A stretch of 64,000 nucleotides of DNA from Hydrogenophaga taeniospiralis CCUG 15921 (GTDB lineage Bacteria > Pseudomonadota > Gammaproteobacteria > Burkholderiales > Burkholderiaceae_C): contig NZ_BCWR01000010.1 of NCBI RefSeq assembly GCF_001592305.1, positions 62,001 to 126,000 of the forward strand, given 5' to 3'. Both the position numbers and the translations under genes were made by a program. The notes under the pieces were generated by a model. The model did not search any database. It saw only the letters and a list, made by a program, of their open reading frames with translations, and was not told the DNA's origin. This document shows, piece after piece, positions 48,349-56,853 of the stretch (positions within the stretch are counted from its first letter, which is position 1; every line of letters starts with the position of its first letter).

Positions 48349-48390
48349 CGGAAATCCGTTTTTGGGTGCTGCCAGGCGAACGGATTTCCG
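48349..48390. promoter_or_regulatory. Two CGG-N4-CCG sites, candidate enhancer for the sigma-54 activator
   Basis: CGGAAATCCG at 48349-48358 and CGGATTTCCG at 48381-48390. The second is the centre of a 20-bp palindrome (GCGAACGGA, TT, TCCGTTCGC). Centres are 32 bp apart, about three helical turns, and sit 105-135 bp before the -24/-12 promoter. The CGG-N4-CCG core resembles, from memory, the AauR motif TTCGG-N4-CCGAA. Confidence 0.65.
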
Positions 48391-48479
48391 TTCGCTCCGG
48401 TGCGCCACAGGGGCCGTTGGCGCCCGAATTCCGGGGTCATGCGCCCGTTTTGAGGTCGGTCCCTAGGGTTTGTACCGAC

Positions 48480-48495
48480 TGGCATGGCGCTTGCG
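48480..48495 (+). promoter_or_regulatory. Sigma-54 (-24/-12) promoter
   Basis: TGGCATGGCGCTTGCG: GG at 48481-48482 and GC at 48493-48494 with the required 10 bp between. The predicted start near 48506 leaves a leader of only about 12-18 nt and no clear ribosome site, which is the main weakness. Confidence 0.65.
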
Positions 48496-48517
48496 CTAAG
48501 GACGGCAAGCTCCACCC

Positions 48518-53512: not shown

Positions 53513-53590
53513 GTTCTTCCAACTGAGGTCACCATCCACCCCGCACCGCCGTTCGGTCCGCCCCCAGCCCCGCCGCGCCGTCGCCCCGGG

Positions 53591-55489
53591 GTGGCCCTGC
53601 GGCGCGCGCTGCTGGCGCTGGTGGCCCTGGCCCTCGTCGCCGCCTCGGGTTATGCGGTCTACCAGCGCAGCTTTGCGCAGGGCGCGAGCAGCCTGAAGGC
53701 CGCGTCCAACGGGCGGCTCGACCTGTTCGCCTCGGTGGTGGAGGCCCGCGTGCGGCGCCTGGAGCCTGTGCCGGCGACCATCCAGCTCAACCCCGCGGTG
53801 TTGCGGCTGCTGCAGGCGCCCGGCGCTGCGCACGCCGCCGCCGCCAACGACTACCTCTCCCGGCTGAATGCCCACCTGGGCAGCCTGGCGGTGTTTGTGC
53901 TGGACGTGCGCGGCGTGGTGCTGGCGTCCAGCAACGCGGTGCAGCGCGACGACAGCCTGCGCGGCGAAGATGTTTCGTACCGCCCGTACTTCCTGGAGGC
54001 CCTGGCCGGGCGCTCGACGCGCCACTTCGCCATCGGCAGCGGCGGCTACGCGGGCTATTTCGCGTCGCACCCCATTTACGACGGCCCCCGGGTGGTGGGG
54101 GTGGCGGCCATCAAGATCGGCCTGGACGCGCTGGAACAGACCTGGCCGATGCTGGGCGCGCCCGCGCTGGTGGCCGACGCCAACCAGGTGGTGATCCTGT
54201 CGTCCCAGCCAGCGTGGCGCTACACCTCGCTGGCGCCCTTGCCGACCGAACGCCGTGTGGACCTGCAACTGGCCCAGACCTACGACTCCCTGCGCCTGCC
54301 CCTGTTCCCGCTGAAGGTGGAGCTCTCGGTGGACGAAGACACGCAGGAAGTGCAGGGCCTGCTGCACGGCGACGAGGCCAAGGTCTCCGCGGCGCTGGGC
54401 CAAGCGCGCAACCGGGCGGATTTCATGGTCCTGGGGCGTTCGCTGGACGGCATGGACTGGCGGGTGCTGATCTTCACCAGCCTGGCGTCGGTGCGGCACC
54501 AGGCCTTGCTGGACGGCGTGGGTGGCGCCGTGTCCGTGGCCTTTGTGATCCTGCTGGCGCTGTACTGGGCACAGCGCCAGCGCATCGAGCGCCAGAAGCT
54601 GGGCGCCAAGCGCCTGCTCGAACAGGCCAACGCCGAGCTGGAGCAGGAGGTGGGCCGAAGGACGCAGGAACTCACCGATGCCAACACCCTGCTGCGCAAG
54701 GAGGTGGCCGAGCGCGAGCAGACCGAAAAGACCCTGCGGGCGGCGCAGGACGGGCTGGTGCACGCGGGCAAGATGGCCGTGCTGGGCCAGCTCGCCGCCA
54801 GCATCACGCACGAACTCACGCAGCCGCTGGGCGCGATCCGCACCCTGTCGGGCAACGCGGCCGAATTCCTGCGGCGGGGCAACGCCGACGCGGCGCAGGA
54901 AAACCTCTTGATCATGGCCCGGCTGGTGGAGCAGATGGCACGCATCATCGACCCGCTCAAGAGCTTCTCGCGCAAATCGACCGCCTGCCCCGAGGCCACC
55001 GACGCGGGTCGCGTGGTGGAGCAGGCGCTGTTCCTGTTCCAGCTGCGCCTGCGCCACGAAAAGGTGGAGGCCGACAACCGCTGCCAGCCCGGGCAATGGA
55101 CGGTGTGGTGTGACGCCAACCGGCTGGAGCAGGTGCTGATCAACCTGATCGGCAATGCGCTCGATGCCCTGCGCGACGCACCGCACAAGCGGCTGCAGAT
55201 CACGGCCGAAGCGCTGCCGGCGGCGCAGCCGCCCGTGCTGGCGATCCACGTGCAGGACAGCGGCAAGGGCCTGAGCGAGACCGACCTGGCGCACCTGTTC
55301 CAGCCCTTCTACACCACCAAGGCCAGTGGTGCCGGCCTCGGGCTGGGCCTGGTGATCTGCCGCGACATTGCCGCAGAATTCCAGGGTGAACTGCAGGCGC
55401 ACAACGTCCCCGGTGGCGGCGCCTGTTTCACGCTCACCGTTCCCCTCTGGCAAGCCTCCATGCACCCGAAAACCCCCGTGACCCCATGA
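53591..55489 (+). CDS. aauS: DctB/AauS-like membrane sensor histidine kinase
   Basis: 632 residues from a GTG at 53591; no ATG exists upstream in frame. First helix LLALVALALVAASGYAVY, periplasmic double-Cache-like sensor about 30-310 (YFLEALAGRSTRHFAIGSG, GYFASHPIYDGPRVVGVAAIKI), second helix ALLDGVGGAVSVAFVILLALYW, coiled coil ELEQEVGRRTQELTDANTLL, HisKA LAASITHELTQPLGAIR and HATPase with NRLEQVLINLIGNALDALRD, GAGLGLGLVICRDIAAEFQG. DctB-class kinases sense acidic ligands; here acidic amino acids are probable. Confidence 0.87.
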   Translation: MALRRALLALVALALVAASGYAVYQRSFAQGASSLKAASNGRLDLFASVVEARVRRLEPVPATIQLNPAVLRLLQAPGAAHAAAANDYLSRLNAHLGSLAVFVLDVRGVVLASSNAVQRDDSLRGEDVSYRPYFLEALAGRSTRHFAIGSGGYAGYFASHPIYDGPRVVGVAAIKIGLDALEQTWPMLGAPALVADANQVVILSSQPAWRYTSLAPLPTERRVDLQLAQTYDSLRLPLFPLKVELSVDEDTQEVQGLLHGDEAKVSAALGQARNRADFMVLGRSLDGMDWRVLIFTSLASVRHQALLDGVGGAVSVAFVILLALYWAQRQRIERQKLGAKRLLEQANAELEQEVGRRTQELTDANTLLRKEVAEREQTEKTLRAAQDGLVHAGKMAVLGQLAASITHELTQPLGAIRTLSGNAAEFLRRGNADAAQENLLIMARLVEQMARIIDPLKSFSRKSTACPEATDAGRVVEQALFLFQLRLRHEKVEADNRCQPGQWTVWCDANRLEQVLINLIGNALDALRDAPHKRLQITAEALPAAQPPVLAIHVQDSGKGLSETDLAHLFQPFYTTKASGAGLGLGLVICRDIAAEFQGELQAHNVPGGGACFTLTVPLWQASMHPKTPVTP

Positions 55490-56853
55490 ATCGCGCCCTG
55501 ACCGTCCTTTTGGTGGAAGACGATGCCGCCGTGCAGCTGGGCTGTGTGCAGGCCCTGCAACTGGCCGACATCCCGGTGCGCGCTTTCGAGTCGGCCGAGG
55601 CCGTGCTGCCACACATCAGCCCTGGCCTGGCCGGCGTGATCGTGACCGACATGCGCCTGCCCGGGGCCGACGGCCTGTCGGTGATCTGCGAGGCGCGCGA
55701 CATCGACCCCGACCTGCCGGTGATCATGATCACCGGCCACGGCGACGTGAACCTGGCCGTCCAGGCCATGCGCAGCGGCGCCTACGACTTCATCCCCAAG
55801 CCCTTTTCGCCCGAGCAGCTGGTGGAGGTGGTGCAGCGCGCGCTGGAGAAGCGCCGCCTGACGCTGGAGGTGGCGAACCTGCGCCGCGCGCTGACGCTCA
55901 GCGAAGGGCTCGAAGGCAAGCTGGTCGGCCACTCGCCGGCCATCGCGCGCGTGCGGCAGCTGGTGACCGAGGTGGCCGACTCGCCGGTGGACGTGCTGAT
56001 CCGCGGCGAAACCGGCACCGGCAAGGAGGTGGTGGCGCGCGCACTGCACGACCATTCGCGGCGCCGCAACGCGCCCTATGTGGCGCTCAACTGCGGCGGC
56101 CTGCCCGACAGCCTGCTCGACAGCGAACTGTTCGGCCATGAACCCGGCGCCTTCACCGGGGCGCAGAAGCGCCGCATCGGCCGCATCGAACACGCCAACG
56201 GTGGCACGCTGTTCCTCGACGAGCTCGAAAGCATGCCCATGGGCGTGCAGGTCAAGCTGCTGCGCGTGCTGCAGGAGCGCTGCATCGAGCGGCTGGGATC
56301 GAACCAGAGCATTCCGGTGGACGTGCGCGTGGTCGCGGCCACCAAGGACGATCTGCTGGCGCGCGCGCAGCAGGGCAGCTTCCGCTCCGACCTGGTGTAC
56401 CGGCTGAACGTGGTCAACATCGAGCTGCCGCCGCTGCGCGAGCGGCGCGAAGACATTCCGATGCTGCTGGAGCACTTCATGCTGCTGGCCGCCAGCCGCT
56501 ACGACCGGCCCGAGCCCCGGCTGCCGCAGGCGCAGCTGCGCCAGCTGATGGCGCGCGACTGGCCCGGCAATGTGCGCGAGCTGCGCAACGTGGCCGATGC
56601 GCTGGTGCTGGGGGTGGGCCCGCAGTGGGTGTCGCCCCACGGGCCGGCGCCCGAAGCATCAGGCAACGATGCGCAGCCCACGCTGACCGAAACGGTCGAG
56701 CAGTTCGAACGCAGCCTGATCGCCGATGCCCTGCAGCGCCACGCCGGCAACGTGGGCCAGACCGCCAAGGCGCTGCGCATCGCCAAGACCACCCTGGTCG
56801 ACAAGATCAGGAAACACGGGCTGGGCAAGGGGGAGGCGGCTTCGGAAGCCTAA
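55486..56853 (+). CDS. aauR: DctD/AauR-like sigma-54-dependent response regulator
   Basis: 455 residues. Receiver with Asp12-Asp13, phospho-Asp55 (VIVTDMRLPGADG). AAA+ domain: Walker A GETGTGKE (174-181), the sigma-54 contact loop GAFTGA (221-226) intact, and Walker B GGTLFLDELES. Fis-type HTH at the end (HAGNVGQTAKALRIAKTTLVDKIRKHG). Overlaps the kinase by ATGA. It should activate the -24/-12 promoter at 48480 from sites at 48349-48390. Confidence 0.92.
   Translation: MNRALTVLLVEDDAAVQLGCVQALQLADIPVRAFESAEAVLPHISPGLAGVIVTDMRLPGADGLSVICEARDIDPDLPVIMITGHGDVNLAVQAMRSGAYDFIPKPFSPEQLVEVVQRALEKRRLTLEVANLRRALTLSEGLEGKLVGHSPAIARVRQLVTEVADSPVDVLIRGETGTGKEVVARALHDHSRRRNAPYVALNCGGLPDSLLDSELFGHEPGAFTGAQKRRIGRIEHANGGTLFLDELESMPMGVQVKLLRVLQERCIERLGSNQSIPVDVRVVAATKDDLLARAQQGSFRSDLVYRLNVVNIELPPLRERREDIPMLLEHFMLLAASRYDRPEPRLPQAQLRQLMARDWPGNVRELRNVADALVLGVGPQWVSPHGPAPEASGNDAQPTLTETVEQFERSLIADALQRHAGNVGQTAKALRIAKTTLVDKIRKHGLGKGEAASEA

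Follow-up and report, generated by a model that had tools for sequence, protein, structure and literature searches.

The stretch of DNA considered here, 64,000 nucleotides of Hydrogenophaga taeniospiralis CCUG 15921 (contig NZ_BCWR01000010.1, positions 62,001 to 126,000 of the forward strand) and hereafter called the window, carries at positions 48349..56853 an operon that very probably functions as an autoregulated circuit for acidic amino acid uptake of the AauRS-AatJQMP type. Comparison with related loci supports its placement as a betaproteobacterial relative of that Pseudomonas system, a known kind of circuit in variant form. Taken alone it is only modestly interesting; what stand out are a difference in its operators, a helical ladder of enhancer-promoter distances among its relatives and, above all, predicted leaderless mRNAs made from sigma-54 promoters. 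A first-pass annotation of the window had proposed a self-contained sigma-54 circuit for acidic amino acids, built from a CGG-N4-CCG pair, a GG-N10-GC promoter, three binding proteins, GltJKL, a kinase and an activator with GAFTGA. All of these parts lie where it had placed them, and its reading is supported by related loci, which keep both the gene order and the cis layout.

Organization of the operon

Two predicted activator operators, recognized by sequence comparison and carrying no strand, precede the genes. The distal one, enhancer site 1 (CGGAAATCCG, 48349..48358), has the flanks GTCGG..CCGTT, and the proximal one, enhancer site 2 (CGGATTTCCG, 48381..48390), the flanks AACGG..CCGTT. They are separated by 32 bp, start to start, and both sit in a 17-nt inverted repeat that is 88% complementary. 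On the plus strand, 99 bp from site 2, lies a consensus match to a sigma-54 -24/-12 promoter (TGGCATGGCGCTTGC, TGGCAT-N5-TTGC, 48480..48494), which combines GG-N10-GC with TGGCAY..TTGC and is linked to an activator containing GAFTGA, as expected of a sigma-54-dependent promoter. The host genome (5.28 Mb) has one Sigma54_DBD match, a sigma-54 gene being present.

The genes that follow, all on the plus strand and all identified by homology, begin with three substrate-binding proteins (SBPs) with SBP_bac_3 domain matches: SBP1, the product of the first gene and of the GltI/DEBP glutamate/aspartate type (48518..49414), SBP2, a second family-3 binding protein (49420..50307), and SBP3, a third (50380..51279). 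A GltJ-type permease (51353..52093), a GltK-type permease (52095..52760) and a GltL-type ABC ATPase (52778..53512) come next, followed by a DctB/AauS-like sensor kinase (53534..55489, its start perhaps being AUC 53534 rather than GTG 53591) and an AauR/DctD-type sigma-54 activator (55486..56853) made up of a receiver domain, an AAA+ domain with GAFTGA and a Fis-type helix-turn-helix (HTH). The ATG of the activator gene overlaps the stop codon of the kinase gene. A linked GltI-type binding protein, two permeases, an ATPase, a DctB-like kinase and a sigma-54 activator together make up the gene content of an AauRS-AatJQMP circuit.

The circuit would operate as follows. Periplasmic glutamate or aspartate would be sensed by the Cache-domain kinase, directly or via a loaded binding protein, and the kinase would phosphorylate the activator. 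The activator would bind the two operators, which are three helical turns apart, with looping of the DNA, and its GAFTGA-bearing AAA+ domain would open the sigma-54 promoter from a helically phased distance. Transcription would take in binding proteins, transporter and the circuit's own regulators, creating a positive loop for which the genome has a single strict operator pair. The mRNA would start beside the first start codon, with no Shine-Dalgarno (SD) sequence, after a leader of 12-18 nt in this operon and a predicted 0-4 nt in 16 related promoters.

Conservation of gene order and operator pair

Relatives of SBP1 (E <=1e-115) were found in 35 of 399 genomes of the family and relatives of the kinase (E <=1e-80) in 21 of 150. 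The best SBP1 relative in the set of named genomes was that of Hydrogenophaga aromaticivorans (91%), and of four other genomes sampled from the same genus, two contained SBP1 and two did not. The order SBP1-SBP3-GltJKL-kinase-activator is found in L042, L045, L046, L051, L052 and L054, and loci of the Hydrogenophaga type have this order with three binding proteins (L162 is the operon's own locus, refetched). Both kinase and activator lie within the locus in 24 of the 80 named loci; no relative of either was found, at the thresholds used, in those loci of the 80 that belong to Burkholderia, Paraburkholderia and Caballeronia. A CGG-N4-CCG pair spaced by 29-34 bp and located within 500 bp upstream was present in 15 of the 24 loci with both regulators versus 4 of the 56 without (Fisher p 4e-7, relatedness ignored), and three of those four sit on contigs shorter than 9 kb. 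Pair and sigma-54 site stand together in 39 distinct promoters, and related loci keep gene order and cis layout alike.

The bare core pair is at chance level and proves nothing alone: in the loose form CGG-N4-CCG/N20-35/CGG-N4-CCG it occurs at 66 places in the organism's own genome versus 212 for the reversed control. The sigma-54 consensus on its own is equally unremarkable, with 3 matches in the window versus 1.69 expected. The strict, AT-centred pair CGGWWWWCCG-N20-23-CGGWWWWCCG, by contrast with its reversed control (2 of 399 genomes), occurs at 30 places in 29 of the 399 family genomes, and at a single place in the organism's own genome. Of the 30 places, 20 lie just 5' of an SBP1 gene (coordinates compared by eye); a sigma-54-like site, on either strand, accompanies four of the remaining ten at a distance of 75-132 bp and is missing from the other six. 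The case for the predicted operators is carried by the AT centre, the 31-32 bp spacing and conservation, not by CGG-N4-CCG alone, and we take the pair and promoter to be real because they are conserved upstream of orthologous operons. A strict operator pair was also seen about 1.7 kb from an SBP2-like gene (72% identical) in L186 (genome G086), within a long open frame.

Operator flanks and the recognition helix of the activator

The match to an AauR-like core that the first-pass annotation had drawn holds. The core CGG-N4-CCG equals that of the published AauR site and is what the two share; the flanks of both sites in the window differ from the TTCGG-N4-CCGAA of AauR, and because of this the circuit is filed as a variant and not as AauR itself. 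A tendency towards T-CGG..CCG-A is seen in the Pseudomonas locus, in Rhodocyclales, Aquabacterium and Giesbergeria and in two further genomes of the same family (10 sites, with T at position -1 in 70% and A at position +10 in 60%). The published AauR sequence type is present exactly, as TTCGGAATTCCGAA, in Pseudomonas L140, and as TTCGGTGCACCGAA in L055. The operon's own clade tends to A-CGG..CCG-T, or RACGG..CCGTY (64 sites, with A at -1 in 64% and T at +10 in 77%); the row L075 of this flank count is that locus's paralogous second SBP1.

The recognition helix of the activator varies along with the flanks. It reads TT(L/M)-H-D with A-(E/D)-AL in all seven betaproteobacterial loci of the TTCGG type, TTL-F-D with A-Q-AL in the Pseudomonas locus, and TTL-(A/N/V/S)-D with a residue that is not acidic in the 22 loci, RACGG or probably so, whose C terminus was available. 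The operator types had been assigned by hand before the helices were printed. This association suggests that the two helix positions are specificity residues, a prediction and not an independent test, for the link depends on a small number of changes in the tree and lacks phylogenetic independence. It has exceptions: L077, labelled RACGG, and L173 have TCCGGAAATCCGAT, which is nearer the TTCGG type, the helix of L077 being of the other kind; the two sites of L068 belong to different types; and L073 was called TTCGG on weak sites.

Enhancer-promoter distances and integration host factor

Activation by sigma-54 activators has been shown experimentally to depend on the face of the helix at NtrC and NifA promoters, and the distances at the 39 distinct paired promoters appear to be a comparative trace of that dependence. 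The two sites are spaced by 30-33 bp, or three turns, and site 2 lies 57, 67, 77-79, 85-89, 96-101, 110 or 120-122 bp from the sigma-54 site. The Rayleigh vector was 0.78 at 10.5 bp, with a best period of 10.7 in a scan of 4-30 bp and a permutation p of 3e-4, the floor of 3001; L173 was counted in this set at 67 bp, though another pair was picked for it in the promoter table. With one promoter per 80% SBP1 cluster (n = 14, the clusters still being related), R was 0.67 at 10.5 bp and the permutation p 0.006. In hand-chosen contrasts of related promoters, 10 of 11 differed by whole turns to within 1.5 bp, the exception being L042-L077 (17 bp). Of 12 further promoters examined that lack an exact pair, eight carry a proximal site at 86-88 bp from the sigma-54 site (with one core mismatch in L055, L078 and L097), and four, L048, L053, L076 and L140, do not. 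In the Azohydromonas-type loci L170 and L175 the two sites are 42 and 41 bp apart, about four turns.

Sites resembling the consensus for integration host factor (IHF), scanned as WATCAANNNNTTR with at most one mismatch, lie between enhancer and promoter in 13 of the 39 paired promoters versus 0.3 expected from mononucleotide shuffles. In twelve of the 13 the distance to the -24 element is 39-41, 49-52 or 62 bp; the thirteenth site, in L066 at 20 bp, is doubtful. Of the 13 unpaired promoters listed, 11 have such a site too. Paired promoters without one number 26 of the 39, among them the window, the Variovorax and Sphaerotilus types and, apart from the doubtful L066, the rest of the Hydrogenophaga type. 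A GGGNTWANCC-like stretch recurs just 5' of the -24 element in part of the clade, at 48465-48478 in the window and also in L045, L046, L051, L062-L067, L074, L169 and L184.

A predicted sigma-54 start at or near the first codon

On balance we lean towards the view that in one branch of the Burkholderiales the sigma-54 promoter has become fused to the first gene, giving an activator-controlled leaderless mRNA that begins at the AUG; the genus of the window would have a related, SD-less and A/C-rich mini-leader, and the enhancers would have stayed at whole turns while their distance drifted by 10, 21 or more bp. In the numbering of sigma-54 promoters the C of the GC is -12. Counting 12 nt past this C places the predicted transcription start of the operon at 48506 and its 5' leader at 48506..48523 on the plus strand, 12 nt long if SBP1 begins at ATG 48518 and 18 nt if at ATG 48524. 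The second ATG has an equivalent in all four closest relatives (L062-L065) and the first in two. There is no SD sequence in the predicted transcribed part, and the same is true of the window and eight Hydrogenophaga-type relatives as a group, whose predicted leaders are 12-19 nt long and A/C-rich.

Taking as leaderless a leader of less than about 5 nt before an AUG, the predicted leader of the window falls outside the class and those of 16 related promoters fall within it. In these 16 the start codon, always ATG, is 12-15 nt past the C, which predicts a leader of about 0-4 nt, and the median SD duplex energy is -2.95; in 12 relatives hand-chosen for comparison (TTCGG-type or related), the start codon is 53-93 nt past the C and is preceded by a clear SD sequence (median -6.4; Mann-Whitney p 2e-4 versus the 16). 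The 16 span the genus codes g8, g10, g27, g35, g52 and g70, with Ideonella, Sphaerotilus and two metagenome-assembled genomes that possibly overlap with the codes. For eight of them (L046, L051, L052, L054, L068, L150, L166 and L173) no start codon other than this ATG would preserve the signal peptide, as judged by a hydrophobicity rule. The first-pass annotation had seen the short leader as the weak point of the circuit, an objection that loses its force when 16 related promoters share predicted leaders of 0-4 nt.

Two further groups lie outside the comparison of the 16 with the 12. In L044, L154, L075, L156, L159 and L164 the ATG is at +40 to +49 with a weak SD sequence (-2.9 to +1.9), and SD-less leaders are therefore wider than the leaderless class; in L076, L078, L170 and L175 it is at +43 to +58 with SD energies of -4.3 to -7.7. 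The leader classes cluster on the SBP1 tree, with 5 changes among 51 rows versus a shuffled mean of 22.7, on a tree from which L181, L059, L058, L087 and L137 were left out by hand and whose midpoint rooting does not establish the direction of change. The Variovorax-type L047 and L152, with which the leaderless tree rows numbered 18, were dropped from the class because their ATG at +11 is missing in L156, L159 and L075, where starts are at +40 to +49; 16 remain.

The idea that leaderless sigma-54 promoters are general in the family found no support. A scan of 120 genomes for TGGCACGNNNNYTGC-N8-37-ATG gave at least 150 matches; among the matches listed, which come from 21 genomes, 29 of 150 had the ATG at 11-15 nt versus 25 expected if uniform, and by a hand count of the same matches 9 had it at exactly 12 nt versus 5 expected. 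The organism's own genome has an excess of sigma-54-like sites followed by an ATG after 8-37 nt (15 on each strand versus 2 and 3 in the control), 5 of the 30 having it at 11-13 nt. A distant relative at L060 1-1000 (SBP about 40% identical), with its own kinase-activator pair, has TGGCACGCCGGCTGC with an ATG at +12 and is a possible independent leaderless case. Leaderless transcripts are established in the order, one study of Cupriavidus metallidurans giving them as 4.67% of primary starts (PMC7563307). The open-access literature searched, as far as its texts were available, yielded no account of this operator or of leaderless transcripts conserved at sigma-54 promoters.

Substrate and signal

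SBP1 matches the glutamate/aspartate binding protein 2IA4/2VHA over 274 residues (E 7e-94), and its substrate is probably glutamate/aspartate. The sensor of the kinase is a DctB-type Cache domain, which phmmer matched to the DctB structures 3BY9, 2ZBB and 3E4O (3BY9, E 7e-28) and which contains RPYF..GY..K, presumably a pocket-like motif of DctB-type sensors; RPYF or RPYY is present in 14 of 20 aligned kinases, that of the window included. In L100 and L075 the genes of kinase and activator come after SBP1, and about 20 kb of the locus contain no GltJKL; L072 is arranged likewise on a contig that ends after the activator; in L086 and L102, SBP1 lies beside an oppositely oriented activator-kinase pair, again with no GltJKL in the locus. 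Such transporter-less units may fit a co-receptor role for SBP1, and the conserved kinase motif may fit direct sensing. In P. syringae, aatJ is needed for full signaling, and the authors leave direct versus AatJ-mediated sensing open (PMC7386598); loci that consist of SBP1, kinase and activator bear on that very question.

The kinase frame runs 5' of GTG 53591 to ATC 53534, which stands behind GAGGT (53525-53529). The sequence GAGGTCRCCATC is kept in the window and in L062-L065, and because four of these five have no in-frame ATG, GTG or TTG upstream of the GTG, the kinase may start at AUC. Between the ATC and the GTG, 9 of 16 variable columns are third codon positions (hand count). In L067, L182, L183 and L068 the arrangement differs from that in the window, a TTG in the kinase frame overlapping the gltL stop (TTGA).

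Alternative explanations

Chance matching in GC-rich DNA is a scarcely credible account of the sites and the promoter. The 66 places of the loose core pair and a sigma-54 consensus not above chance in the window would fit this account, and it is already contradicted by the recurrence of pair and promoter together before orthologous operons, in 39 distinct promoters, and by the specificity of the strict pattern. It is also improbable that the pair serves a different regulator, a repressor or an amino acid regulator encoded elsewhere, with the linked two-component system acting on other genes. Ideonella L071, where the pair is present with no linked regulators in 13 kb, and the six strict family pairs that stand neither before SBP1 nor before a sigma-54-like site would fit this; set against them, the pair follows the linked kinase and activator and has the core of the published AauR site, the groups that differ in operator flanks also differ in the activator HTH, and the distance from the pair to the sigma-54 site is in helical phase. 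A third explanation accepts the sigma-54 promoter as real and places the start of the working mRNA at a promoter further upstream, so that SBP1 would use a normal leader and the sigma-54 start would be minor or silent. SD-like sequence does occur 5' of the predicted start in L051 and L052 (-7.0 and -9.5) and, when 20 nt are counted and partly 5' of that start, in the window (-7.5) and L067/L169 (-5.7), and the mapping of transcription start sites has shown leaderless and leadered starts coexisting on some genes (PMC3616915). This SD-like sequence is, however, unconserved: 14 of the 16 leaderless-type promoters are no stronger than -4.4 versus the median of -6.4 in the 12 leadered relatives, and L062-L065 score +0.4 to -1.5 at the first start. 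No E. coli-type sigma-70 match was found in 48300-57700, but 0.8 would be expected by chance and this was the one promoter type scanned. We regard an upstream start as unlikely.

Several observations count against the autoregulated circuit as proposed. Nine of the 24 loci with both regulators are without the pair; among them, L083 has 42 bp of upstream sequence only, L073, L076, L078, L097 and L140 hold one-mismatch or TTCGG-type sites, and in L086, L100 and L102 both the pair and a good sigma-54 site are absent. L071 has the pair without the regulators, and 15 of the 35 SBP1-bearing genomes lack the strict pair. A candidate IHF site in the window was not accepted, the best match having 3 mismatches (shuffle P 0.56). 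The substrate is assigned by homology, and in this organism the circuit is known from sequence alone.

Other features of the region

A terminator-like hairpin with a T tail, found on the plus strand by a terminator scan in the SBP3-gltJ gap (51306..51335), is a possible partial terminator; with its arms GCCGTCCG..CGGGCGGC and T tail (51306-51338) it could keep the binding proteins in excess over the permease. Nine terminator-like sites were found in the region versus 5.6 expected. The SBP2-SBP3 gap contains a perfect hexamer repeat, TTTCCC x 5.8, at 50313-50347; none of the eight related loci compared (two being identical in sequence) shows it, and it is treated as private to this genome. A second DctBD-type pair is encoded in the same genome on contig C31 (L006), its activator being 54% identical to that of the operon.

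Relation to known systems and significance

The kinase sensor of the operon matches DctB structures and its activator has the same domain order as DctD; unlike the C4-dicarboxylate system DctB-DctD, the linked transporter here is an amino acid ABC system. With GltIJKL/DEBP of E. coli and Shigella the operon shares the alignment of SBP1 to 2IA4/2VHA and the same kinds of transporter genes, and it differs in its linked sigma-54 two-component system and two extra binding proteins. GluS-GluR of Burkholderia glumae is likewise a two-component system of the Burkholderiales studied with glutamate and glutamine, but is reported to act on cell division (PMC8281045). The closest likeness is to AauS-AauR/AatJ-AatQMP of P. 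putida, P. aeruginosa and P. syringae, which also combines a DctB-like kinase, a sigma-54 activator, a GltI-type binding protein and a GltJKL-type transporter, with inverted repeats of core CGG-N4-CCG upstream of a -24/-12 promoter and with AauR, RpoN and AatJ holding the corresponding roles (PMC7962211, PMC7386598). Pseudomonas L140 has an IHF-like site in addition to its exact TTCGGAATTCCGAA site. The operon of the window departs from the AauR system in its GTCGG..CCGTT and AACGG..CCGTT operators (versus TTCGG..CCGAA) and its recognition-helix residues, in having three binding proteins, and in a predicted SD-less leader of 12-18 nt, whereas the promoter in P. aeruginosa is placed 131-144 bp before aatJ.

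The circuit would extend a Pseudomonas signaling module to the Comamonadaceae and Sphaerotilaceae. Its comparison suggests how the operator changed, T..A against A..T flanks going together with two helix positions, which would make a clean specificity-swap test, and the ladder of distances may be read as a natural experiment on enhancer-promoter looping, in which the insertions and deletions that persist lie mostly close to whole turns while IHF-like sites appear and disappear. A sigma-54 start that coincides with the AUG would join enhancer-driven transcription and leaderless translation, which are usually treated apart. If this is true, one regulated event would deliver an mRNA that does not need SD recognition for its first, sensor-linked gene.

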